From positions 1 through 23,161 of the IMG/VR virus record IMGVR_UViG_3300034190_003249: DNA of 23,161 bases. One strand, 5' to 3'. The position numbers were made by a program, and so were the translations under genes. Shown here piece after piece: positions 3,009 through 23,161 of this stretch (position 1 is the stretch's first letter; each line of letters opens with the position of its first letter). This DNA is from a virus. The notes beneath the pieces were generated by a model that saw nothing but the letters and a program-made list of their open reading frames with translations, was not told the origin of the DNA and ran no database searches.

Positions 3009-4590
3009 CGTAAACGTAGAAGAAGCTGCAATATTTAAAAAGATGATTGACGAAAATAGATACGACTACTGTAAGTTAATCTATTTAATATTTCCATTCG
3101 GTGAAGAGGGAACTGACCTTGAACACATGGCTCCTTACAAGTGGCAAATGGAAGAGTTACAAAAACTCTCTGATCATTTAGCAGATCCTAAAACTCGTTA
3201 CGAGACTTATCGATTAATTATTTCTTCAGGTAACGGTGCTGCGAAAACTGCATTCGGTGCAATGGTTGCGATAATGCTTTTATATACTCAACGATTAAAA
3301 GCAAGAGTAACTGCCAACACTGATCCGCAGCTCTCTCAAATAATTTGGCCGGAGTATGATTTATGGTTTAACAGAGCTAGATACGTTGATCACTTCTTTG
3401 AAAAGTTTGGAACAACTATTAAAGCTAAGAATCCTAAGCTTGCAAACGTTTGGAAAATAGATAGGTTTACTTGGAATGAGCAAAACCCTTCTGCAGTATC
3501 AGGACTTCACAATAAAGGTGGAGCTTGTATGTATATCTTTGAAGAAGCGCCAGGAATTCCTGCAAAAATATGGCAGTATTCTTCAGGTGCTTTTACTGAA
3601 ACAGAAACTATTAAACTTCATTTAGCTTTTGGGAACAGTGATGATCCTGAAAGTAAATTTGAACAGAACATGACTTCTCCGATTTGGCATTCAAGAAGAA
3701 TTGATACAAGAGAGTTAAAACATATTGACCCGAAACAAATTGAAGCATGGTTAATTGATTGTGGTGGTGATGAGAACTCTGACGACTTCAGAGTGCGTGT
3801 AAGAGGATTACCAAGAAAGTCAGCTAAGGATTCGATTATTAAATTGGAAGCCGTAGAAGCGGCACTAGCGAGACGACACAACTTCGATAAAGCAAGTGTT
3901 GCAAACTTTCCTATCATTCTTTCTATTGACCCTGCATGGACAGGTGGAGATGAGTGTACGATTTGGTACAGGCAAGGTCCGTACAAATGTTTATTAGAAA
4001 GATACAAACTTAATAAAGCGAATAACGAAACTCACCAAGTCAGTTATAATAAATTATGTTACTGGGAAAGAAAGCTAGGTGCAGATGCAGTTAACATAGA
4101 TCAAGGTGAAGGTACTGCAATTTATACTCTTGCTATGAACGCTCAGAAGTATCACTGGGTTTTAGTTTCGTTTGCCAACTCTCCAACAGATCAACCAGAT
4201 CCTAAAGAGTCTGAGTACGCAAACATTAGAGCCATGATGTATTATCATCTTCAAAGAGATTTATTTGAAGGCGGTATTTTAGATAGTAGAGATGAAGCAT
4301 GGGTTGAAGATATTAAAAAACAATTATGTTGGACCAAGGGGACTCGTCATAAAGTTACTCATAAGAAAATTGCTGAACCTAAGATGGACATTAAAGATCG
4401 GGTTGGTAAGTCTCCTGATATTGCCGATGGTGCCGTATTACTTTTTGCTCACGATATTATTGATAGACTTCCACAAAATGAAGTAGGTGCTGACGGAACC
4501 GCATTCGCAGTTGGTGAAGAAAGTTTCAGAATGCCTACTCCTGATCCTTCAGATGTTTATGGAGAGTATGATGATAGCTTATACGATTGA
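3001..4590 (+). CDS. Terminase large subunit (packaging ATPase and nuclease)
   Basis: Motor protein that pumps phage DNA through the portal and cuts it. The 529 residues contain an N-terminal ATPase: Walker A-like SGNGAAKT (residues 76-83, K82), a Walker B-like strand MYIFEEA (177-183), and a coupling segment LAFGNSDD. The C-terminal RNase H-like nuclease has the expected acidic residues in SIDPAWTGGDE (D310), VNIDQGEG (D367) and SPDIADGA (D473, D476). Length and order are normal for phage large terminases. Odd points: the residue before the Walker A lysine is alanine rather than the usual glycine, and the Walker B ends EE rather than DE. AAGG at 2991-2994 is spaced 6 from the ATG at 3001. 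Confidence 0.93.
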   Translation: MSNVNVEEAAIFKKMIDENRYDYCKLIYLIFPFGEEGTDLEHMAPYKWQMEELQKLSDHLADPKTRYETYRLIISSGNGAAKTAFGAMVAIMLLYTQRLKARVTANTDPQLSQIIWPEYDLWFNRARYVDHFFEKFGTTIKAKNPKLANVWKIDRFTWNEQNPSAVSGLHNKGGACMYIFEEAPGIPAKIWQYSSGAFTETETIKLHLAFGNSDDPESKFEQNMTSPIWHSRRIDTRELKHIDPKQIEAWLIDCGGDENSDDFRVRVRGLPRKSAKDSIIKLEAVEAALARRHNFDKASVANFPIILSIDPAWTGGDECTIWYRQGPYKCLLERYKLNKANNETHQVSYNKLCYWERKLGADAVNIDQGEGTAIYTLAMNAQKYHWVLVSFANSPTDQPDPKESEYANIRAMMYYHLQRDLFEGGILDSRDEAWVEDIKKQLCWTKGTRHKVTHKKIAEPKMDIKDRVGKSPDIADGAVLLFAHDIIDRLPQNEVGADGTAFAVGEESFRMPTPDPSDVYGEYDDSLYD

Positions 4591-5005
4591 AAGATATAAT
4601 ACCCCCACTAGAGAGCTGTGTGATTTCATAATGGCTGAAGCTCCAGAACTTAATAAAAGATTCGGAAGTAAATTCAATTTCAAAAGATGCGACTTAGAAC
4701 TGATGACTAGAAAAGGTTTATTCTTGGTAGTTAAAAGAGAAGGTGAAATTAGAGGATGGATGATAGCCTTTATGACTCCGAGTATCTTTGACACAAATGT
4801 TAAGATATTGCAACAACAATCGTTTTTCGTTAAACCTGACTCAGGAAGGGCGGCATACCACCTATTTAAGAAATTTATTGACATAGGAAAAAGTGAAGCT
4901 GATCATATAAACACTATGTTGACAAGTCAAACCAACATAAAACCTGAGACATTAAATCGGCTAGGTTTTAAAGAGGTGGAGACGTTGTACCGTTTGGAGG
5001 TTTAA
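4571..5005 (+). CDS. GNAT-like acyltransferase of the packaging module
   Basis: Predicted 144-residue GNAT-fold protein. The longer reading from 4487 runs inside the terminase gene with no ribosome binding site. GGAGAG at 4561-4566 points to the ATG at 4571 (or 4568). A central strand pair GEIRGWMIAFM, the helix-rich segment AYHLFKKFIDIGKSEA, and the typical GNAT ending LNRLGFKEVETLYRLEV are visible. The canonical acetyl-CoA pyrophosphate loop (Q/RxxGxG/A) is not clear, where the sequence reads VKPDSGRAAYHL. Proteins of this sort commonly sit near the terminase and portal of podoviruses; their substrate is unknown. It overlaps the terminase by 20 bases, and its last bases carry the GGAGG for the next gene. 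Confidence 0.7.
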   Translation: MIAYTIERYNTPTRELCDFIMAEAPELNKRFGSKFNFKRCDLELMTRKGLFLVVKREGEIRGWMIAFMTPSIFDTNVKILQQQSFFVKPDSGRAAYHLFKKFIDIGKSEADHINTMLTSQTNIKPETLNRLGFKEVETLYRLEV

Positions 5006-5389
5006 GTGAGCACAGGTGGTGGTAATAGTTTTTTTGAAAGTACATTAGATATTGTTGCTCAAGCTTTTACAGGCGGTGCTATAGGTTTCAAAAGTGACGA
5101 AGGTGGACTTGGAGTAGGTGTTACTGGTGAAGTAGGTGTGGATACCTTTAAAGAGATCACAGGTGCAGCAGCAGCAGAAGAAGCAAATGCAGATGCTAGA
5201 AAAAGATTTGAAGAAGAAAAAGCAGCATCAGATAAACAACGAGCAGATAACGTAGCTCAATCTGCAGCTAACGAATTACAGAAATCACGTTCCGCAGCTT
5301 CGGCAAGGGGAGGAGTCTCAGGTTCATCTAAAGGGCAATCTAGGTTTTCTAGTTTAGGCAATGATGAATCAGACTTTCTAGGTCTATGA
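5006..5389 (+). CDS. Small virion-type protein preceding the portal
   Basis: A 127-residue protein with a GTG start at 5006, chosen because GGAGG at 4996-5000 is ideally spaced and the previous gene stops at 5005. The N-terminus is glycine-rich (FTGGAIGFKSDEGGLGVGVT). The middle, residues about 52-95, is a charged Ala/Glu/Lys coiled coil. The tail is Ser/Gly-rich, ending SLGNDESDFLGL. No catalytic motif is visible. T7 gene 7.3 occupies the same place directly before the portal and encodes a small Gly/Ser-rich tail-assembly protein, so this may be a positional counterpart. There is no clear sequence match. It overlaps the portal start by ATGA. Confidence 0.65.
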   Translation: MSTGGGNSFFESTLDIVAQAFTGGAIGFKSDEGGLGVGVTGEVGVDTFKEITGAAAAEEANADARKRFEEEKAASDKQRADNVAQSAANELQKSRSAASARGGVSGSSKGQSRFSSLGNDESDFLGL

Positions 5390-7083
5390 CAATAAATACA
5401 AAACAATCATGTGAATTTTTAAGACAACAATCTAAACAGACTTTTGATTTAGTCCGTAGAGATTGGTGTGATCTTTTACGTTGGGGTTTACCTCATCGTT
5501 CATCATGGATCTTAAGTCAGACTCAAGGTGAAAGAAAGAATCAACATATAGTTGACCCTACTCACATCTTAGCACTTCGTTCTTTCGTGGCAGGATTCTT
5601 AGAAGGTAACACTTCTTCGTCTCGTCCTTGGGCACGTATAGGAACTAGAGATTCTGAGAGAGATGACAGCTTTGAAAATAAAGAGTGGCTACAACATTTT
5701 ACAAGTAGAGTGATGAATTATTTATCTACCTCTAACTTTTATCATGCTGCCGGTAATTTTTATTATGACTATGGAGTTGTGAATACAGGTGCTCATTACT
5801 TTGAAGTTTTAGAAAATGGATTCTTCGTTCATACTCTTATGCCCGGCTCTTACTTCGTAATTAATAATTCTTACGGTGAAGCTGTAGTGCTTACTAGAGA
5901 ATTTTCAATGAACGTAAAATCTCTAGTGGATGCTTACGGACAAAAAAATGCTAGTGGTAGCATTGATTGGTCTAACATTTCTGATGGAGTTAAGAAGTCT
6001 TATGAAGATGGAAACTATACTCAGCAAATAGATGTTGTCCATATCATCAAAGAGAATCCTGATTACGATATTCAAGATCCTGACAATATTGAAAATAGAA
6101 AATGGTTAGAACTTACTTACGAGACAGGATCTTCTGCAAGAGGATCTAACTCAGGTAACATCTTAATGGGAGACTCGATTCGTTTAGACGATGATGTTTT
6201 CTTAAAGAGATTCACTACCAAGAGAAAGCCGTTTGTTGTAGGGAAGTCTACAGACTCTTTCGAGTACGGAGAAAAAGGTCCAACTATAGATGCTCTTGGT
6301 TGTATTAAATCTTTGAATAAGAAAGCCATTGGTAAAGATCAAGCTCTTGAGCAAATGCTTAGACCTACTTTACAGGGACCGGCAAGCTTAAGAAAAAGTT
6401 ATATCAGCAATGCTCCTAACACTTTTATTCCTCTTGATGCTAGATCAGTTGGGAATAAGCAGAAGCTTGAATCAGTATTTCAAATCAGTCCTGCCATCGG
6501 TGCAGTGATTCAAGATGTTGGTGATCTAAGACAGCAAGTAGATAAACTTTATTATGCTGACTTTCTTTTATACCTTTCTAAAAATCCTAAGACTCGTACA
6601 GCTACGGAAACTGCAGCCATTGTTGAAGAACAACAAAGGATTATCGGACCTAATTTACAGTCTTTGAATTTTACTTATAACGTTCCTGTGATTGAGTGGG
6701 TAATGGATTATGTTCTTTTTGAAGATCCATATCTAAGACCACCACCGGAATCAATGCAAGGTCAGGCTTTACGTCCTGAATTTATTTCTATCTTCGCACA
6801 AGCTCAACGTTCGGCAGACTTACCTGCAGTAGATAGATTTGCTGCCATGATCGGTAACGTTGCTCAGATTGATCCTAGAATTTTAGATAAGATCAATACT
6901 GATAAACTTGCAGACATTTATGAAGACCGTTTATATTTACCATCAGGATTAAATAATCCTCAAAGTAAAGTAGACGCTATGAGAGAACAAGCTCAAGCAG
7001 ATGCGAAGAGAACGCAAGCTCTTGAGCAAACGCTACCTGCAGTAGCAAAAGCAGCAAAAGATGCTTCGGCATTACAAGAATAA
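5386..7083 (+). CDS. Portal (head-to-tail connector) protein
   Basis: Forms the dodecameric ring at the capsid vertex through which DNA passes. The 565 residues match the head-tail connector family of T7-like phages (Pfam Head-tail_con). Landmarks are DWCDLLRWGLPHRSSW (26-41), HILALRSFVAGFLEGNTSSS (60-79), then RPWARIG (80-86), TLMPGSYFV (around 150), LRPTLQGPASL and QQVDKLYYADFL in the clip and stem region, and TATETAAIVEEQQRIIGP before the wing. The C-terminus is rich in Gln and Ala (DAMREQAQADAKRTQALEQT), like the barrel or tail of other podovirus portals. Length is normal. Start is ATGA-coupled to the preceding gene. Confidence 0.93.
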   Translation: MTINTKQSCEFLRQQSKQTFDLVRRDWCDLLRWGLPHRSSWILSQTQGERKNQHIVDPTHILALRSFVAGFLEGNTSSSRPWARIGTRDSERDDSFENKEWLQHFTSRVMNYLSTSNFYHAAGNFYYDYGVVNTGAHYFEVLENGFFVHTLMPGSYFVINNSYGEAVVLTREFSMNVKSLVDAYGQKNASGSIDWSNISDGVKKSYEDGNYTQQIDVVHIIKENPDYDIQDPDNIENRKWLELTYETGSSARGSNSGNILMGDSIRLDDDVFLKRFTTKRKPFVVGKSTDSFEYGEKGPTIDALGCIKSLNKKAIGKDQALEQMLRPTLQGPASLRKSYISNAPNTFIPLDARSVGNKQKLESVFQISPAIGAVIQDVGDLRQQVDKLYYADFLLYLSKNPKTRTATETAAIVEEQQRIIGPNLQSLNFTYNVPVIEWVMDYVLFEDPYLRPPPESMQGQALRPEFISIFAQAQRSADLPAVDRFAAMIGNVAQIDPRILDKINTDKLADIYEDRLYLPSGLNNPQSKVDAMREQAQADAKRTQALEQTLPAVAKAAKDASALQE

Positions 7084-7094
7084 TTAATATAACT

Positions 7095-7100
7095 CGGAGG
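7095..7100 (+). promoter_or_regulatory. Strong ribosome binding site (CGGAGG) of the exported protein
   Basis: CGGAGG is 5 bases before the ATG at 7106, in the context AACTCGGAGGTTATAATG. The same CGGAGG core precedes the major capsid and cement genes, the products expected in highest copy. Confidence 0.7.
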
Positions 7101-7105
7101 TTATA

Positions 7106-7696
7106 ATGAAGTTTTTAGTAGCAGTATTTTTTACATTATTATCACTTTCTGCAGTAGCAGGATTTGAAGGGAAACAAGATGGAACAAGTCTTAAGGTTTT
7201 TAATAAGATTGATTGTTCTACAGGTCTAACTTGTACTCGTACTGGTAATGGTGATTTCACTATGACCGCTGATGCAAGTGGTGCTTTAATTGAGTCTGAT
7301 GTTACAGCTCAAGATGAAGGTCTAAACATTGGTCGTCTTGCAATTTTCGATTACGATTTTGCTGTTGATGGTGGAGCTGTTAGTACTATCGCTTCAGGTG
7401 TTAGTCTTCCTGCTAAAGCTGTTATTGAAAAATGTTGGTTTCGTATTGAAACTCAAATTGTTGATGCAGGTGCAGGGACTCTAGCGGTTCAGTGTGAAGA
7501 TGCTAACAATATTTTAAGTGCAGCCGATCAATCAGGTGTTGCAGCAGGTGCATTCTTAGCTTCAGCAATTACAGGTACAGCAGCTACTATGGTTGATGAT
7601 ATTGCAGCTTCTTGTGACATTAGTTTCGTTATCGGTGGAGCAGCTATTTCTGCAGGTAAACTTAGAGGGTACTGTAGGTACTCAGTTCACGAATAA
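7106..7696 (+). CDS. Exported Cys-rich structural-type protein
   Basis: A 196-residue protein starting with a textbook Sec signal peptide: a lysine, a hydrophobic core (FLVAVFFTLLSL), and a signal peptidase I site SAVA before GFEG, cutting after residue 18. The mature part has two sections. One is an N-terminal segment with KIDCSTGLTC (C37, C43). The other, about residues 72-196, is a beta-rich domain (GRLAIFDYDFAVDGGAVSTI ... LPAKAVIEKCWFRIET ... AGKLRGYCRYSV) that resembles a common phage structural or decoration domain of unknown exact role. Six cysteines (37, 43, 110, 130, 170, 190) could form three disulfides in the periplasm. It sits between portal and Bbp19-like genes behind a very strong ribosome binding site. 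Whether it reaches the virion is unknown. Confidence 0.8.
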   Translation: MKFLVAVFFTLLSLSAVAGFEGKQDGTSLKVFNKIDCSTGLTCTRTGNGDFTMTADASGALIESDVTAQDEGLNIGRLAIFDYDFAVDGGAVSTIASGVSLPAKAVIEKCWFRIETQIVDAGAGTLAVQCEDANNILSAADQSGVAAGAFLASAITGTAATMVDDIAASCDISFVIGGAAISAGKLRGYCRYSVHE

Positions 7697-8058
7697 TGGA
7701 CTCAGTAGCAGCAACTAAATATTACGAAGAGAAAGAAAGACAGGAGAGTATCGAACATCGTGATGCTCTCTTGGCTATCGCCTCAGTTGTAAAAACCAAG
7801 GAAGGGGAAAAGCTTTTTAGATATTTATTTAAAAACTTTGAAGTTGCGAATCTCCCTGACCGAGGATTAGAAGATAAAGATTTGTATGAGTACCTAGGAT
7901 TTTTAAGAGCAGGTAACTCCATTTATAAACTCGTATGTGAAGCTGACGCAGAAATAGCAGGTTCCATATTATCGAAACTAGAGAGAGAAAGATATGAGCA
8001 CAAACTCGCAGAGCACAGAATCGAAACCGGCTATGCCGACCCCAACTCCAACGCCTGA
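7696..8058 (+). CDS. Bbp19-like small virion/assembly protein
   Basis: A 120-residue protein, likely related to the Bbp19-type proteins found just before the scaffold in BPP-1-like phages. The signature region is VVKTKEGEKLFRYLFKNF, then LYEYLGFLRAGNSIYKLVCE, which has the family layout (T-x-EG-x2-L/F-x2-L, then a G/aromatic-rich R-x-G-N helix). N-terminal and C-terminal parts are charged helices. It starts in a TAATG overlap with the exported-protein gene and has no good ribosome binding site of its own, so its translation probably depends on the gene before. Its last 65 bases overlap the scaffold gene in another frame. The biochemical role of the family is not established. Confidence 0.7.
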   Translation: MDSVAATKYYEEKERQESIEHRDALLAIASVVKTKEGEKLFRYLFKNFEVANLPDRGLEDKDLYEYLGFLRAGNSIYKLVCEADAEIAGSILSKLERERYEHKLAEHRIETGYADPNSNA

Positions 8059-8800
8059 TACAACACCTTCTGTAGAAACACCAGTTGAACCTAAAGCAGG
8101 TGAAGTTGATGACTTAGGTTATACAACTCCTGAAGACGTTACTCCTGCAGTAGAAGAGGTAAAACCTGATGAAGAAAAACCTAAACCTACTGAAGAACTA
8201 CCTAGCGAAGAAGACAGCACAGGCTATGGGAAAGAAGACGAAGTTGAAAAACCTGAAGATAAACCTGCAGAAAAAACTGCCGAAGAACTTGCTAAAGAAA
8301 AGGAAGACGAAGAAAATAAAACAGACGAAGAAAAAGCCGCTGAATTAGTTCAAGCGAATATTAAAAAACATATTGAAGGACTACCTGAGTCGGTTAATAA
8401 AGATGCAGTTTCTAAGTTCGCTGAAGAGAATGGACTTACTGATGTTCAAGTTGAAGCCTATGTCAAGCTTGCGAAAGCAGATGATGCTTCCTTGGTAACT
8501 CAGAGAGAGAATGCGATTAAAGAGCAAAGAAAGGCTTGGAAAGGCGAATTACAAGGTGATCCTGAATTTGGTGGTGAAAACTTTGATAAAAATGTTGACC
8601 GAGTTAACAAGGTATTAGATAAATATATGCCTGATACTAAAAAGATCTTGACAGAGCGAGGTACAATGTTGCCTCCTTATATCATGAGGGATTTTTTGAA
8701 GTTGGATAAGGTTTTAAATCCGACAACAAAACTTCCCACGGGTGAACCTCCTGCTGTAAAAAAGGAAGAGGTAAGTTTACTGGATGAAATGTATAGTTAA
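7994..8800 (+). CDS. Capsid scaffolding protein
   Basis: A 268-residue protein directly before the major capsid gene, with scaffold features. The N-terminal 130 residues are disordered, very acidic and proline-rich (MPTPTPTPDTTPSVETP, then EEKPKPTEELPSEED). The C-terminal half is helical. A conserved element, around residues 178-195, reads RKAWKGELQGDPEFGGENF, followed by RVNKVLDKYMPDTKKILTE and MLPPYIMRDFLKLDKVL, as in many podovirus scaffolds. It guides capsid protein into the procapsid and leaves or is degraded later. The start at 7994 has GAGAGAGAAAG upstream but overlaps the previous gene by 65 bases. An in-frame ATG at 8033 is a weaker alternative. Confidence 0.8.
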   Translation: MSTNSQSTESKPAMPTPTPTPDTTPSVETPVEPKAGEVDDLGYTTPEDVTPAVEEVKPDEEKPKPTEELPSEEDSTGYGKEDEVEKPEDKPAEKTAEELAKEKEDEENKTDEEKAAELVQANIKKHIEGLPESVNKDAVSKFAEENGLTDVQVEAYVKLAKADDASLVTQRENAIKEQRKAWKGELQGDPEFGGENFDKNVDRVNKVLDKYMPDTKKILTERGTMLPPYIMRDFLKLDKVLNPTTKLPTGEPPAVKKEEVSLLDEMYS

Positions 8801-8818: not shown

Positions 8819-9844
8819 ATGACAGCAAAAGGATCACAATTTTTAACTCTAGCTGATGTAGCTAAAAGTAAAAACAAAGTTATCGGTGGAGTAGCCGAAG
8901 TTCTTATGAACGAAAATGCTATGCTTGAAGATATGATGTACACAGAAATGAATGAAGGAACTATCCATAAAGAAGATATTCGTTCAGCACTTCCTGAAGT
9001 TTATTATAGAAAAGCTAACCAAGCTATTCCTTCAAGTAAAAGTACAATTGAAGAAAGAAGTTTTACAGCAACTCACTTTGAGTCTAAGTCTCAAGTTGAT
9101 CGTGCCGTTGCAGAACGTGGTGGTATGGATCGTGTTGCTTACAACAGATGGAACCAAGCACAAGGTCACTTACAAGCTCATGCAAATGAACTTGCTGATC
9201 TTATGATTTACGGATCACCGGCACTAGCCAACCGTAAAACTGCAGGTCTATTTGATATTTACTCAACTCTTGCAACTACTGAAGAGACAAGTAATCAAAT
9301 CGTTGATGCCGGTGGTACAGGATCTGATAACTGTTCAATTCTTAAAGTTCATCACGGAGAGAGAGCAATTTTTGGAGTTTACCCAAAAGGTACAACTGCA
9401 GGTCTTACTAGAAATGATCACTCAAAAGGTGGGAAAGTTATTAAGATTGAAGCTCTTGATGTAAACGGTGCAGCCGGATCACTATGGGGTTATGAAGAAG
9501 AATTCTTAACTGATCATGGTCTTGTTGTTAAAGATTATAGACAAGCTTCTCGTATTGCTAACATTGATGTTTCAAATTTAGTATCAGGTGCAGGTGCTGC
9601 GGATCTTATCGATCTTATGATTTCTGCTAACTATACTATTGAGAATCCTCAAAATGGTAAAGGTGTATGGTATGTGAATAGAACCGTAGAGGCTCATCTT
9701 CACAAACAAGCTCTTACTAAAGTTGGTGCCGGTGGTGGTCTTAGCTTTGAGAACTTTGAAGGTCGTAGAATTCTAACTTTCCTTGGTGATCCAGTAAGAA
9801 GAATGGATGCACTAGTTAACAGTGAAGCTAGAGTAACAACTTAA
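8819..9844 (+). CDS. Major capsid protein, GP20/BPP-1 type
   Basis: The main shell protein, HK97-fold by family. Its 341 residues carry the hallmarks of the BPP-1-type major capsid protein: FLTLADVAK (8-16), the loop PEVYYRKANQAIPSSKST (59-76), AHANELADLMIYGSPAL (120-136), VDAGGTGSDNCSI (162-174), GVYPKGTTAGL (186-196), and RQASRIANIDVSNL in the second domain. Length is as expected. Expression is set for high output, with a near-ideal CGGAGG ribosome binding site and a hairpin terminator just after the stop. Only one cysteine is present, in contrast to the exported protein at 7106. Confidence 0.93.
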   Translation: MTAKGSQFLTLADVAKSKNKVIGGVAEVLMNENAMLEDMMYTEMNEGTIHKEDIRSALPEVYYRKANQAIPSSKSTIEERSFTATHFESKSQVDRAVAERGGMDRVAYNRWNQAQGHLQAHANELADLMIYGSPALANRKTAGLFDIYSTLATTEETSNQIVDAGGTGSDNCSILKVHHGERAIFGVYPKGTTAGLTRNDHSKGGKVIKIEALDVNGAAGSLWGYEEEFLTDHGLVVKDYRQASRIANIDVSNLVSGAGAADLIDLMISANYTIENPQNGKGVWYVNRTVEAHLHKQALTKVGAGGGLSFENFEGRRILTFLGDPVRRMDALVNSEARVTT

Positions 9845-9848
9845 TCAA

Positions 9849-9873
9849 AGGGAGCCGAAAGGCTCCTTCTTTT
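9849..9873 (+). terminator. Intrinsic terminator after the major capsid gene
   Basis: GGGAGCC-GAAA-GGCTCCT forms an 8-bp stem (9849-9856 with 9861-9868, one G-T pair) closed by a stable GNRA tetraloop and followed by CTTTT. The T run is short, so read-through into the cement gene is likely. The hairpin may also protect the 3' end of the capsid message. Confidence 0.75.
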
Positions 9874-9923: not shown

Positions 9924-10361
9924 ATGAGATTTGATTTAGAAAACCAGTTGTCCGTTGAGCAAGCCTTCACAGGTGCAGCTACCGTTTCAACTAACTCGTA
10001 CAAAAAGCAATCTGCTGCTCAAGATATTTCTATCGGGCGTAGAATGGCTTTACTACTTTTACCTACAGTTGCTCAAGGTGCAGGTTCAACTATGACAGTT
10101 GAAGCGATCCAAGCTGATGATGCTGCTCTTACGTCTAACGTAGAAGTACTCAACACTGTAACAGTTATTGCAGCTAACATGACTCTTGGAGATCAGTTAG
10201 AGATTCCATTTCCTCAAGGAACTATGGATAAGCAATACCTAGGTGCTAGAGTTACTCTTGCTACTGGAACAACTACTATTACTGCAGATATTTATCTTGT
10301 ACCTCAAGATGAAATTGCTCAGTACAAGTCGTTTGTTAAAGTAAACAAAGCGTCTGTTTAA
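9924..10361 (+). CDS. Capsid cement (decoration) protein, Bbp16-like
   Basis: A 145-residue protein that probably binds the outside of the capsid and stabilises it. It begins MRFDLENQLSVEQAFTGAA, a start typical of Bbp16 cement proteins. It continues with the family pattern: DISIGRRMALLLLP, AGSTMTVEAIQADDAALTSN, LEIPFPQGTMDKQYLGARVT and TITADIYLVPQ, a jelly-roll-like beta protein. Its place directly after the major capsid gene, and its own strong CGGAGG site, fit a product made in capsid-like amounts. It is isolated by hairpins on both sides (9849-9873 and 10373-10410), so it may be made from a discrete transcript or mRNA segment. Confidence 0.85.
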   Translation: MRFDLENQLSVEQAFTGAATVSTNSYKKQSAAQDISIGRRMALLLLPTVAQGAGSTMTVEAIQADDAALTSNVEVLNTVTVIAANMTLGDQLEIPFPQGTMDKQYLGARVTLATGTTTITADIYLVPQDEIAQYKSFVKVNKASV

Positions 10362-10771: not shown

Positions 10772-10800
10772 CTCTCGCCTTTTAATGCGAGGGTGAAATG
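10772..10800 (+). promoter_or_regulatory. RNA hairpin covering the adaptor ribosome binding site
   Basis: CTCTCGC (10772-10778) pairs with GCGAGGG (10787-10793), a 7-bp stem with one T-G pair and an 8-base loop. The right arm contains the GAGGG Shine-Dalgarno of the gene starting at 10798. The left arm starts one base after the stop codon of the previous gene. A ribosome ending there could open the hairpin, coupling the two genes. There is no T run after it, so termination is unlikely. Confidence 0.45.
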
Positions 10801-11418: not shown

Positions 11419-13913
11419 GTTTAAAACCATTACTTAGTTTCTCTTCAGGAGAGCTAGATCCTATTCTTCATGACCATGTAACTTTAGAAAAGTTTAAGAA
11501 AGGTCTACATACTGCTAGAAACGTAATGGTTTCTAAGACAGGTGGTTTACTTTCTCGATTCTCAAGATCTTATTTTGTAGATGGAAAGAATGCTAATGAA
11601 CAGATCAAATTATTCTCTCCTCCAAATTCTAGTGCCCTCTTGGTATGGGGAAATCTTTACGTTAGAACTTATGACTTCACAGGAGCCTTAGTTAATGAAG
11701 TTGCTCATTTATATAACGAAGCTCAAGTTCAAACTATGCACTTCACAGCAAGTGGAAAATATGTTTACGCTTTTGTTGAAGGGCAGACAGCACTTAAGTT
11801 TTTATACGACGATGCTACTCCTGCATTCGTAGCTTCAGCAGATGTATTCGCACTACCTCTTGCTCCTACTAATATGGCTATTACAGCCAATGGTGCACCT
11901 ACTGGATATTCAGTTGATTATCTTGTTAGTAAAGTTAAAAACGGTGAAGAGTCTTTAGGTGTAGAAATTACAGGAACAACTTATAAAAAACCATTAGCCG
12001 CAGGTGAGTCTAATACTATTACTGTAGATATAGAATTAGCTTTCGCAGGTGACTTAGATGAGTACAGCGGAATAAGAGTTTACAGAAGACCTAACTCAGG
12101 TGGAGCTTACGGATTCATAGGATCAAGTAGTAACATGAGTAGTGTTGGTGCAACTCTTAGTGCAGCTTTTGAGGATCTTGGAGGTAGCGCAGATTTTACG
12201 AATGGTTTTCAAGAGACAATTACCAAGACAGGTCTAAGTGGAATAGGAGCTTTAGCTCTTGTACCTAAGACAGGTACTGTTTATCAGCAACGATTATTAA
12301 TGGCTAACATAGTAGATGATGAAGAAGCAATCTTAGCTTCACGTTCTGGTTTTCAGAATAATTTCTACCGTGACTTTCCTTATGATTCTGATTCAGCTTT
12401 AAAGTTTAAGTCAGGTACTTCAGGTAAAGCTTCAGTATTAAGAATGGTTGATAACGATGGACTAATTGTTTTTACTAACGTTGGAGTTTTCGTTTCAGTA
12501 GGTGCTCTTACGATTGACAACATTGCTTTAGAGAAAAAAGGTAGTTGGGTAATCGATGAAAACATACCTCCTCTTTCAGTTCCAGGCGGTGTCTTTTTCG
12601 TAGATGCTGCAACCAATACTGTTAGGCAATTAATCTTCTCTCAAGACATTTTAACTTATCAAACTTTAGATCAATCTATTTTCAGTGATCATCTATTTAG
12701 ATCAAGAACAATTACATCATGGGCGTATCAAACAGGTGCCGTTCCAATGATCATAGTTACTTTTTCTGATGGAACATGGGCTACGTTTACTTATCACTTT
12801 GAACATCAAATGAGAGCGTGGACAAGACACGATTCAGAATATCCAGTTGAGGCAGTTATCGAAACAGGTGTTGCTGATTCAACTTTCTTTGTCACTAATA
12901 AAAATGGCGTTAGACAAGTTGAAGTTAGTATTCCTAGATATACTCCTGCAGCAACAGTAGTAGCTAACCCTGAGTATGATAAGTTTTCAACTCATGCTTT
13001 CATGGATGCTATTAAAACTTATTCTATTCCATTACATGAAAGTTTAGCAGGTAGTGATGTATTCACGTTGACTCCTGTTATAGCTGACACATGGGATGGA
13101 GAATTAACTTTAACTTGTGGAACTTCTGCAATCTTTATTACAGGTGGACCGCCACTTGATGAGGAAGCAGGAGATATAGGTAGAGTCTTTAGAGTATTCG
13201 CATTAGATGGATCAAGTGTAGATCTTACAGTCACAGCTAGAGCTAGTGATGATGAAGTTACAGTTGTACCTAGTATTGAATATCCTTTAGCTGATGCTTC
13301 AGGTTTTAGAATGTATCAATGCTTTTATAAAGTGACAGGGCTTGATCATCTTGAAGATGAACAGGTATCAGTTATGAGTGATGGTTATGTTGTAAAGTCA
13401 CCTTACAATGATATTGAAAATTACGGAACTACTACTGTTCTGTTAGGACAAATGATCCTACCTGCACCTACTGAAGCAAAGGCAGGAGAAGTAGGTAATC
13501 ACGCAATAGTTGTAGTAGGTAGACCAATTACTGCAGATATTAAAACACTAAACATTAGTACGGTTGAGCAGAAACCTACTATGATAGAATCTATAAATTG
13601 TACTAAACTTTACATTAGAGTTCATGAGAGTAGAGGACTTTACGTTTCTAATGAGTTCCCTGAAGAAGCTGAAAATGAAGTTGATGGGAATGGAGTTCTT
13701 GGTATGCAGAACTTCGATGTGTATAAAATACCAAGAGGGAATGATATTTTAGGAAACAGGTTCTTAGCTGCTCAATCTGAAAGAGTAGAGCTACCTTTAA
13801 AAGGATCATGGGAATCTCAAGGGAAAGTTTCTATTAGACAAGTTGATCCAGTACACTTTCAAATACTTTCAATTATCCCTGATGTTGAAGTACTTAACAG
13901 GAGTAATAGATAA
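11415..13913 (+). CDS. Tail tubular protein B / tail nozzle (T7 gp12-like)
   Basis: Forms the tail nozzle below the adaptor. I choose the GTG at 11415 (832 residues) because it overlaps the previous stop (GTGA) and has AAGAGAG upstream. A GTG at 11394 lacks a ribosome binding site. The start, LLSFSSGELDPILHDHVTLE and then the TARNVMVSKTGGLLSRFSRS segment, is the classic nozzle opening. Residues about 150-255 look like a fibronectin-type insert (YLVSKVKNGEESLG, then YSGIRVYRRPNSGGAYGFIG). Later parts show the propeller repeats (FFVDAATNTVRQLIFSQD, MIIVTFSDGTWATFTY) and the conserved C-terminal VVGRPITADIKTLNI and TKLYIRVHESRGLYV segments. Confidence 0.88.
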   Translation: MSLKPLLSFSSGELDPILHDHVTLEKFKKGLHTARNVMVSKTGGLLSRFSRSYFVDGKNANEQIKLFSPPNSSALLVWGNLYVRTYDFTGALVNEVAHLYNEAQVQTMHFTASGKYVYAFVEGQTALKFLYDDATPAFVASADVFALPLAPTNMAITANGAPTGYSVDYLVSKVKNGEESLGVEITGTTYKKPLAAGESNTITVDIELAFAGDLDEYSGIRVYRRPNSGGAYGFIGSSSNMSSVGATLSAAFEDLGGSADFTNGFQETITKTGLSGIGALALVPKTGTVYQQRLLMANIVDDEEAILASRSGFQNNFYRDFPYDSDSALKFKSGTSGKASVLRMVDNDGLIVFTNVGVFVSVGALTIDNIALEKKGSWVIDENIPPLSVPGGVFFVDAATNTVRQLIFSQDILTYQTLDQSIFSDHLFRSRTITSWAYQTGAVPMIIVTFSDGTWATFTYHFEHQMRAWTRHDSEYPVEAVIETGVADSTFFVTNKNGVRQVEVSIPRYTPAATVVANPEYDKFSTHAFMDAIKTYSIPLHESLAGSDVFTLTPVIADTWDGELTLTCGTSAIFITGGPPLDEEAGDIGRVFRVFALDGSSVDLTVTARASDDEVTVVPSIEYPLADASGFRMYQCFYKVTGLDHLEDEQVSVMSDGYVVKSPYNDIENYGTTTVLLGQMILPAPTEAKAGEVGNHAIVVVGRPITADIKTLNISTVEQKPTMIESINCTKLYIRVHESRGLYVSNEFPEEAENEVDGNGVLGMQNFDVYKIPRGNDILGNRFLAAQSERVELPLKGSWESQGKVSIRQVDPVHFQILSIIPDVEVLNRSNR

Positions 13914-14488
13914 TGGCTTATGCAATGGCAGCAATGGCTGCAGTACAATTAGCAAGTAGTTACTTCGCAGCTCAGAATGCTAGAGACACAGCGGAACTTA
14001 ATAATGATGTTGCTCAATGGAATGCAGAGTTCGCTGAACTTGATGCTCACGACGCAATCATAGAAGGTGAGAGTTCAGTTGCTAGATATGAAGCTGTAGT
14101 AGATCAGACTTTAGGTGATCAACGAGTAGCCTTCGCAGTAGCTGATGTAGATGCTACTTATGGTAGTGCTTCTGAAATTAGTAAAGAAACAAAATTCATG
14201 GCAGAAATTAATAGAATGGAAATTGAAAAGCAAGCTCAAGAAAAAGCTCTAGGTTACAAACGTCAAGCTAGAGACTTCAGACTTCAGGCAGGACTTAACC
14301 TTGCTGCTGAAGAGGCTAGAGCTTCTTCAATACAAGCTTCAGGTGTTGTCGGTGCACTAGGTACTTTATCTAAAGCAGACTTCACAGGTTATGGACCTAA
14401 GAGAAGTTCAGGCGGTCAGAATCAAGGCTTAGACAATTTCAGAAATAATGAAGTGACAGGTTATCAGTCACTAACAGGGGACTTTTAA
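13913..14488 (+). CDS. Internal virion protein, T7 gp14-like
   Basis: Small ejection protein expected to enter the cell envelope first and form the outer-membrane channel of the DNA conduit. The 191 residues begin with an Ala-rich helix (AYAMAAMAAVQLASSYFAAQ). They continue with the family signature: Ala/Glu-rich helices, DQRVAFAVADVDATYGSASE (where relatives have the Q-R-A..A..G-v....GS pattern), INRMEIEKQAQEKALGYKRQ and FRLQAGLNLAAEE. The C-terminal tail is Gly/Ser/Asn-rich. It has AGGAG at 13899-13903 and also a TAATG overlap with the nozzle gene. It is the first of three internal protein genes in the usual order (small, medium, very large). Confidence 0.85.
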   Translation: MAYAMAAMAAVQLASSYFAAQNARDTAELNNDVAQWNAEFAELDAHDAIIEGESSVARYEAVVDQTLGDQRVAFAVADVDATYGSASEISKETKFMAEINRMEIEKQAQEKALGYKRQARDFRLQAGLNLAAEEARASSIQASGVVGALGTLSKADFTGYGPKRSSGGQNQGLDNFRNNEVTGYQSLTGDF

Positions 14489-22063: not shown

Positions 22064-23059
22064 ATGTCACGTACTACCTATGCACCTAAAGAATCATACA
22101 CTGGTAACGGTGCTACCTCCGCTTATACTTTTGATTTTAAAGTTGAAGCTAAAACTCAACTCTTAGTTGTTGTTCTTGATGACACAGGTGTTGAAGTTGA
22201 AAGAGTTAGAGGTAATGATTTAGTTTATCTAAGTTCAGTTACACTTAACACAGGTGGAGGCGGTACTGTAAATTTAGTCGCTAACCTAACCACCGATTAT
22301 ACAATATATTTATTACTAGCTAACGATACTCCGACTCAGGTTTATGAGTTTAGAAATAAGAATAGTTTTACTCTTAAACGTTTTGAAGATGCTCTTGATT
22401 TTATTCTTGGTGCTGTTCAACGTTTAACCTTTCTAAGTTTAGGATCATTAAGAATTAGTGATACAGATGATGAGACTCTTTTCGATGCTCAACTCCCTGA
22501 AGGTGTAGCTTCTAATGGTGAAGCTATTCTACAAGTTAATAGTGCCGGTACTGGTTTTGAGTTTGGAATATCATCTTCAACTATTGCTGCAAATGTTGCT
22601 GCCGCTGCTGCAAGTGCTTTAGCCGCTTCAAATAGTGAGACAGCCGCAGGTGTTAGTGAAACTGCTGCCGCTGCGAGTGCCGTTGATGCTGCCGCTAGTG
22701 CCGCTGCTGCTCTTGCTGCTAGTGTAGGTTATACTCCTAGTGCTGTTCAGACTTTAGGTGCTGCAGGAGAAATTGTAATTGTTTTAACTTCAAGACAACA
22801 CGTTAGAGTAAAATCAAGCGGTGGAATTTTAGCATTATCTACAACTCCTTTCGGAACAGATCCTGCATTATTTCAAGATGGGATGGAAATTGTAGTTGAA
22901 TGTGATGATGCTGCTAACTATCACAATCTTCTGGAGTTAGATGGGCAGTACGGATTCCAAGGGAACGGAGGCTTACCGCTTAAGTTTCCAAACATAATTA
23001 CATTTTTATACAACGAAACAAAAGAAAGATTCTTAGTTAAATCTACAGGAGCATTTTAA
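22064..23059 (+). CDS. Tail fibre protein with T7-type N-terminal attachment domain
   Basis: A 331-residue fibre. Residues 1-150 resemble the T7 gp17 N-terminal domain that docks on the tail (YTGNGATSAYTFDFKVEA, then DYTIYLLLANDTPTQVYEF, then FTLKRFEDALDFILGAVQRL). A short linker leads to an alanine/serine-rich rod, about residues 173-222, with repeating A-x2-SA-x2-A units (AAAASALAASNSETAA), a trimeric coiled-coil shaft. The last 110 residues are a beta domain (VQTLGAAGEIVIVLTSRQHV, LDGQYGFQGNGGLPLKFPNI). The protein is shorter than T7 gp17, so it may be a complete small fibre or an adaptor for another receptor-binding protein. AAGGA at 22052-22056 is spaced 7 from the ATG. Confidence 0.85.
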   Translation: MSRTTYAPKESYTGNGATSAYTFDFKVEAKTQLLVVVLDDTGVEVERVRGNDLVYLSSVTLNTGGGGTVNLVANLTTDYTIYLLLANDTPTQVYEFRNKNSFTLKRFEDALDFILGAVQRLTFLSLGSLRISDTDDETLFDAQLPEGVASNGEAILQVNSAGTGFEFGISSSTIAANVAAAAASALAASNSETAAGVSETAAAASAVDAAASAAAALAASVGYTPSAVQTLGAAGEIVIVLTSRQHVRVKSSGGILALSTTPFGTDPALFQDGMEIVVECDDAANYHNLLELDGQYGFQGNGGLPLKFPNIITFLYNETKERFLVKSTGAF

Positions 23060-23060
23060 T

Positions 23061-23161
23061 ATGAAAGCATTACTTAATTTACTAATACTATTTTTAATAA
23101 CCTTCACATCTCTTGGTAACGCTAGAGTGATTGAAGCGTTGGAAGATATTACAATCTCTCC
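23061..23161 (+). CDS. Start of an exported protein (cut by the window edge)
   Basis: Only the first 33 codons are present. They encode a clear signal peptide: MKALLNLLILFLITFTSLGN, then AR. There is one lysine, a long hydrophobic core and a likely signal peptidase I site after GNA (residue 21). The mature protein starts RVIEALEDITIS. The gene starts one base after the tail fibre stop codon ends, without a clear ribosome binding site, so translation is probably coupled to the fibre. Export suggests a lysis protein (such as a secreted endolysin or spanin component), an envelope protein or another exported structural protein; the visible part cannot decide. Confidence 0.65.
   Translation, partial: MKALLNLLILFLITFTSLGNARVIEALEDITIS

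Follow-up and report, generated by a model that had tools for sequence, protein, structure and literature searches.

Introduction

Assembly of tailed phages is regarded as wholly cytoplasmic, yet a gene in the head module of the virus in IMG/VR record IMGVR_UViG_3300034190_003249 encodes a protein that begins with the features of a secreted one. Why would a gene surrounded by portal, scaffold and capsid genes carry such a start, and where would its product act? The stretch analysed, hereafter the window, comprises 23,161 bases, positions 1 to 23,161 of that record. A first-pass annotation of the DNA had described a strongly expressed, cysteine-rich protein with a Sec signal peptide, and had proposed that it represents a decoration-type domain redirected to the periplasm, with receptor masking, superinfection exclusion, addition to virions at lysis and a secreted decoy as candidate roles.

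Results

A signal-bearing protein encoded in the head module

The gene is an uninterrupted plus-strand ORF (7106-7696) with a 196-aa product, here P0001. It lies directly after a PF12236 connector gene and is followed by a 120-aa ORF and then by a scaffold-like gene, which confirms the location between portal and scaffold given at first pass. The features of the region are as follows.

5386..7083, plus strand: portal-type connector, upstream of the gene (PF12236, 1.2e-75; phrog_332)
7096..7100, plus strand: GGAGG ribosome binding site before the ATG at 7106 (sequence)
7106..7159, plus strand: predicted signal peptide, residues 1-18, SAVA/GFEGK (rule-based; kept in 7 of 7 close relatives)
7160..7324, plus strand: mature N-terminal part, residues 19-73, with CSTGLTC containing C37 and C43 (alignment; low model confidence)
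7325..7693, plus strand: predicted jelly-roll domain, residues 74-196, cement-like (structure models and structure matches)
7493..7495, plus strand: codon of C130, partner of C170
7613..7615, plus strand: codon of C170, partner of C130
7696-8058: 120-aa ORF, downstream of the gene
7994-8800: scaffold-like gene, by position (PHROG label "protease", 2.9e-9)
8819..9844, plus strand: major capsid protein gene, GP7 family (PF20911, 1.5e-83)
9924..10361, plus strand: Bbp16-type cement gene without signal or cysteine (PF21190, 1.1e-8; phrog_427; cysteine count)

By its gene content, the window phage is predicted to have a podovirus-like head of the epsilon15/BPP-1 kind (PF12236 connector, GP7-type capsid, Bbp16-type cement). 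Of 91 capsid-protein matches, the 20 listed have 36-39% identity and come from phages with many different hosts, and the window itself had no near match in the phages collection. No tRNA was found in the window, nor any match to Rfam. The large terminase gene overlaps at its end with an acetyltransferase-like gene (4487-5005, phrog_1249), and a terminator-like hairpin (9849-9868) lies directly 3' of the capsid gene.

The sequence TCGGAGG precedes the starts of the gene at 7106, the major capsid gene at 8819 and the cement gene at 9924, so that the ribosome binding site is indeed the one used for capsid and cement. This site was the only basis that we found for strong expression, as promoter-like sites were not in excess in the window (5 found, 8.1 expected).

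The N-terminus of P0001, MKFLVAVFFTLLSLSAVA followed by GFEGK, has the pattern of a Sec-type signal peptide. Signals were called by a rule rather than with SignalP, namely a positive start, an uncharged core and small residues at -3 and -1, and P0001 satisfies it with K2, a hydrophobic core free of charge and SAVA ahead of G19. The rule was passed by 439 of 10,000 shuffles of the first 30 residues of P0001 (about 4%) and by 2 of the 21 called genes of the window, the other being the gene at 10798, which matches a tail protein family and has an N-terminus that is unconvincing as a signal. The mature part of 178 residues holds six cysteines (C37, C43, C110, C130, C170 and C190). Cysteine makes up 3.06% of P0001 compared with 0-1.46% of the twelve other window proteins counted, and both the scaffold-like protein and the cement protein have none. 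Signal peptide, SAVA/G site and six-cysteine mature part thus all stand as first described, on the sequence and the rule-based call.

Seven close relatives (70-80% identity) keep both the signal and the six mature cysteines. Their signals share only 4-10 of 18 residues with that of the window in ungapped comparison, and signals of the genus retain a positive residue 2 (K or R), a core without charge and, ahead of GFEG, the motif V/A-x-A. In a random-mutation null, the rule was passed by 10% of sequences at 6/18 identical residues and by 32% at 10/18; all five distinct signals of the close relatives pass it, a result for which no joint probability is given because these are related sequences. 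In the window phage and its close relatives, the ribosome site stands directly before the start of the signal.

The signal accompanies a cysteine pair in one clade

Ninety homologues from viral contigs and genome contigs were tabulated, 78 at first and 12 in a follow-up scan queried with members bearing the cysteine pair; some of these are near-identical sequences recovered from separate assemblies. Both C130 and C170 are present in 18 of the 90, and one without the other in none. All 17 pair-bearing homologues with a readable start have a signal, while the 18th (L087) is cut by the end of its contig, close to the beginning of the mature part. Among the first 78 homologues the two cysteines were found together in 12 and singly in none, with a signal in 11 of the 12. 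In the follow-up scan, the signal was present in 6/6 new homologues with the pair and in 0/6 without it.

In a tree built without 11 duplicates and without nine rows that were distant or fibre-like, the 17 distinct pair-bearing rows form a single clade (SH-aLRT 92), and the association therefore counts as one inheritance of signal and cysteine pair rather than as repeated invention. An independent-pairs comparison of the two traits yielded only 2-4 pairs, too few to give it power. Signal and cysteine pair thus have a single origin, and both have persisted through changes in the type of phage and in the place of the gene.

Outside the clade, a signal or signal-like start was found in 8 of 72 homologues (L026, L033, L037, L045, L052, L056, L067 and L092), none of which has the C130/C170 pair. 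The signal of L037 was accepted by eye, as the rule rejects the proline in its core; L056 was counted as signal-like and may be an anchor; L055 and L057, which pass the rule only from weak downstream starts, were scored as having none; and L047 and L066, cut at their 5' ends, are counted among the 72. The tree requires at least 4 changes of signal state, a soft number given few columns and many open forks. Homologues starting consistently downstream of the signal would have spoken against the first-pass annotation. In the clade they do not, as the 17 of 17 show, whereas most homologues outside it lack a signal, which therefore belongs to sub-lineages. Even cysteine counts were found in 16/19 signal-bearing and 30/59 other homologues, but because 8 of the 19 belong to the genus of the window, parity is not taken as evidence.

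Position of the gene among relatives

Close relatives have the same neighbours as far as their records extend, with the gene between portal and capsid wherever both sides are covered. The homologue of L008 (41% identity) resides in a different type of phage, with another capsid protein family and the gene order portal, cement-like gene, small gene, scaffold, capsid. Elsewhere in the clade the position of the gene varies. In L101 and L102 it is located 3' of the capsid genes, with one small gene in between; in L086, L087, L099 and L100 it lies upstream of the terminase, and in L053, L098 and L122 it is found close to genes for fibres or lysis. The intervening small gene of L101 and L102 codes for a signal-less protein of 149 aa that shares, by eye, the YDFAVDGGA stretch of the domain. 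With adjacency defined as a neighbouring gene that matches major head protein families, signal-less homologues adjoin the major capsid gene at 7 of 8 loci tested, the exception being L050. In L014 several genes, including portal and terminase, are in pieces, probably through sequencing errors, and the connector gene of L067 (4976-6751) contains a single stretch matching terminase, primase and helicase-loader families simultaneously, which suggests an intein.

The C-terminal domain is predicted to be a cement-type jelly roll

Sequence searches of Pfam, PHROGs, NCBIfam, PADLOC and PDB with P0001 returned nothing usable, including no match to PF21190 or phrog_427; PF21190 (Bbp16) was matched by 2 of 32 aligned family members, at best with 2.8e-4. 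Four mycobacteriophage records of the phages collection were considered as relatives (E 0.5-0.6) and not accepted.

A model of mature P0001 built from 32 aligned sequences had a mean pLDDT of 76.5, with most blocks of the domain at 85-96 and the first ~55 residues poor. The best matches among solved structures were Pam1 (Z 11.5), GP4 (10.3), KHP30 (10.1), the R4C tail protein (10.0) and KHP40 (9.1), that is, four phage cement proteins and one tail protein, followed by an unrelated chain at Z 7.7. The match to Pam1 had an rmsd of 9.3 over 125 residues with this model, and of 2.7 over 113 residues (Z 10.7) with our first model. The decoration-type domain proposed at first pass is thus upheld by the structure search, whose top matches are trimeric cement proteins (Z 9.1-11.5), and we predict with high confidence that residues 74-196 form the jelly roll of these proteins. 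The redirection to the periplasm agrees with the cleavable type of signal called by the rule, but most homologues outside the clade do without it. Assuming the canonical BIDG/CHEF order, C130-C170 would link strands E-H and C110-C190 strands D-I (available part of PMC3863775). Since homologues without a signal adjoin the major capsid gene, the cement-like domain is virion equipment by origin; the predicted fold does not show function.

A second signal-bearing gene follows the tail-fibre gene

At the end of the window, two further features bear on the question.

22064..23059, plus strand: short tail-fibre protein with a tail-fibre N-terminal domain and no signal (phrog_13893, phrog_5510)
23061..23161, plus strand: start of a second signal-bearing gene, MKALLNLLILFLITFTSLGNA followed by RVIEA, cut by the end of the record

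The gene at 23061 lies directly after the tail-fibre gene. An intact copy in relative G001 encodes a fibre-like protein of 1110 aa with 17 cysteines and the same kind of signal, parts of which match annotated tail fibres of cultured phages. Residues 124-290 are matched by the tail fibre of Pelagibacter phage HTVC309P, in which, however, a fibre-type N-terminus and the matching part belong to one signal-less chain, whereas the window phage has a short fibre protein and then a separate signal-bearing fibre-like protein. Fibre motifs are shared by 27 viral loci; two of these are the same gene in close relatives, both with a signal. None of the remaining 25 passes the rule, although L131 and L149 are signal-like by eye and the start of L148 is unreadable. 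Shortly 3' of a signal-bearing fibre-like gene, L123 has two small cysteine-rich, lipoprotein-like genes (13642-14339; 7 and 6 cysteines), and L053 (2260-5838) encodes a signal-bearing protein of 1192 aa with a carbohydrate-binding module of family 5/12 (PF02839, 1.5e-10).

Signal-bearing genes also cluster in phages whose family gene has a signal. We compared 22 signal-positive loci, which have a signal on the family gene or extend such a record, with 40 signal-negative loci, counting genes of at least 100 aa and excluding the family gene itself. The rule was passed by 25 of 174 genes in the former and by 5 of 302 in the latter (Fisher p 8e-8, only a guide because genes of the same phage are not independent). 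The 25 include three probably false calls, orthologues of the tail protein at 10798, whose removal leaves 22; four of the 25 resemble small lipoproteins. Five signal-bearing genes in a row follow the cement-like gene of L026 (by eye; rule, 5/10). Runs of such genes occupy virion or late modules of unrelated phages (L026, 5649-9560; L052, 6839-12481; L067, 6767-14361; L122, 2006-8385). Compared with the phages collection, the L018 and L026 proteins had no matches, nor did two signal-bearing proteins from fibre modules, while a third had short matches only.

Discussion

P0001 has the predicted jelly roll of about 120 residues that characterizes phage cement proteins and is encoded, as they are, close to the capsid gene in the head module. 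It departs from them in its signal-like N-terminus, which a protein of cytoplasmic assembly should lack, and on this account we regard it as a fold relative of these proteins rather than as one of them. Its residues 74-196 share the predicted jelly-roll/Ig-like fold of the trimeric cement proteins of Pam1 (7eel), GP4 (gp1, 8h89), KHP30 (7dn2) and KHP40 (7dou), and, as noted above, its signal-less homologues adjoin the capsid gene. P0001 differs from them in its signal peptide, six cysteines and added N-terminal part, and in that its phage has a separate Bbp16-type cement gene. The GP4 protein forms trimers on the capsid exterior, according to the accessible part of PMC9698820. The cement protein of BPP-1, Bbp16 (PF21190, 3j4u), is likewise a jelly roll and resembles the predicted fold (Z 7.4-8.1), but P0001 has no Pfam match, and Bbp16 retains Met1 in the capsid and hence has no cleaved signal (PMC3863775, in the part available). 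The tail protein of siphophage R4C (8gtc_T, Z 9.7-10.0) shares the predicted domain fold and differs in being a tail component with a larger chain.

We consider it very probable that P0001 is exported and active outside the cytoplasm, and probable that it is disulfide-bonded. An exported, oxidised, cement-type jelly roll is the simplest account of these features and our best reading. As to function, we tentatively favour the view that P0001 is an extra form, destined for export, of the jelly roll that serves tailed phages as capsid cement or fibre knob, and that it docks on virions.

We infer export, cleavage, disulfide formation, release and docking in the following course. P0001 would be made late, together with the head proteins, pass through Sec and lose 18 residues at SAVA/G. 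Disulfides would form in the periplasm, C130-C170 in all members of the clade, to which the genus of the window would add C37-C43 and C110-C190. Lysis would free the protein, which may then sit outside finished virions as a decoration or adhesin, and the fibre-like product of the gene at 23061 would take the same route. As tailed phages assemble in the cytoplasm, docking would have to follow lysis, a step that we hold possible without counting on it. Binding to finished capsids in vitro is known for decoration proteins of other phages. In favour of docking are the fold, the neighbours in the virion module, a ribosome site of the type seen at the capsid gene, and the fibre-like partner that also bears a signal. 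The presence of a separate Bbp16-type cement gene is a point against this reading, and no precedent was found for docking of an exported protein after lysis.

Members of the clade in which the gene lies away from the head genes fit a host-directed cassette equally well. In that case exported P0001 would be retained in the periplasm or released, and its binding to cell debris or the host envelope would either spare progeny from loss on receptors already spent or bar the cell to further phages. The signal peptide and likely disulfides suit such a role, as does a gene position that varies among phages like that of a portable cassette; weaker structure matches include TNF-like sugar-binding lectins (Z 5.5-6.4, within chance range). 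Llp of phage T5 and Cor, which act in superinfection exclusion, are likewise small phage proteins sent to the periplasm, and Llp, which has a disulfide and blocks a receptor, offers a precedent (available part of PMC9586334). However, Llp and Cor are lipoproteins, while P0001 has no lipobox with cysteine at +1: residue 19 is glycine and all six cysteines are distant. P0001 had no family match to defence models, among which those of Llp and Cor were not included. Exclusion proteins are described as early (PMC9586334, same part), whereas the gene stands with late head genes and shares the type of ribosome site found at the capsid gene, and the signal-bearing fibre-like gene is hard to account for on this view. 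We consider a host-directed role somewhat unlikely.

It is improbable that the signal-like N-terminus has another use, for instance anchoring the protein uncleaved in the membrane or, on an otherwise normal virion protein, acting as a hydrophobic tag for assembly. In favour of such a use, a head module would be expected to contain virion genes, and the hydrophobic starts of the wider relatives L045, L052 and L056 could be anchors. Against this, the genus keeps the -3 and -1 residues (V or A, and A) while the core changes, six cysteines suit an oxidising compartment, and homologues without the segment occupy the same kind of module, so that a tag seems unneeded. A wrong start codon or a hydrophobic start arising by chance is highly improbable despite the simplicity of a rule that shuffles can pass, given the ribosome site directly before the signal in window and close relatives and the signal in every readable clade member.

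The domain itself is already known; of its Sec-exported, disulfide-prone head-module version linked with an exported fibre-like protein, we found no earlier account in the literature searched. Searches on signal peptides in structural, decoration or fibre proteins of phages, judged from listings and including the accessible part of PMC5723332, yielded none, nor did a search for cement jelly rolls with Pam1.

Returning to an exported, oxidised jelly roll as the preferred account, the second signal-bearing gene turns a question about one gene into one about a set of genes. Signals that recur on cement- and fibre-type genes, together with a cysteine pair, across very different phages suggest that some phages export such proteins, so that portions of their outer equipment would leave the cytoplasm ahead of lysis. 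It is a doubtful extension that some tailed phages complete their virions outside the cytoplasm, with two Sec-exported, disulfide-bearing appendage proteins, a jelly roll of cement type and the distal portion of a split tail fibre, attaching to the particles only at lysis. Should the exported proteins rejoin the virion, phages could bear appendages that are oxidised and tougher; should they act on the host, virion parts would have been made into a class of secreted exclusion factors that appear late.
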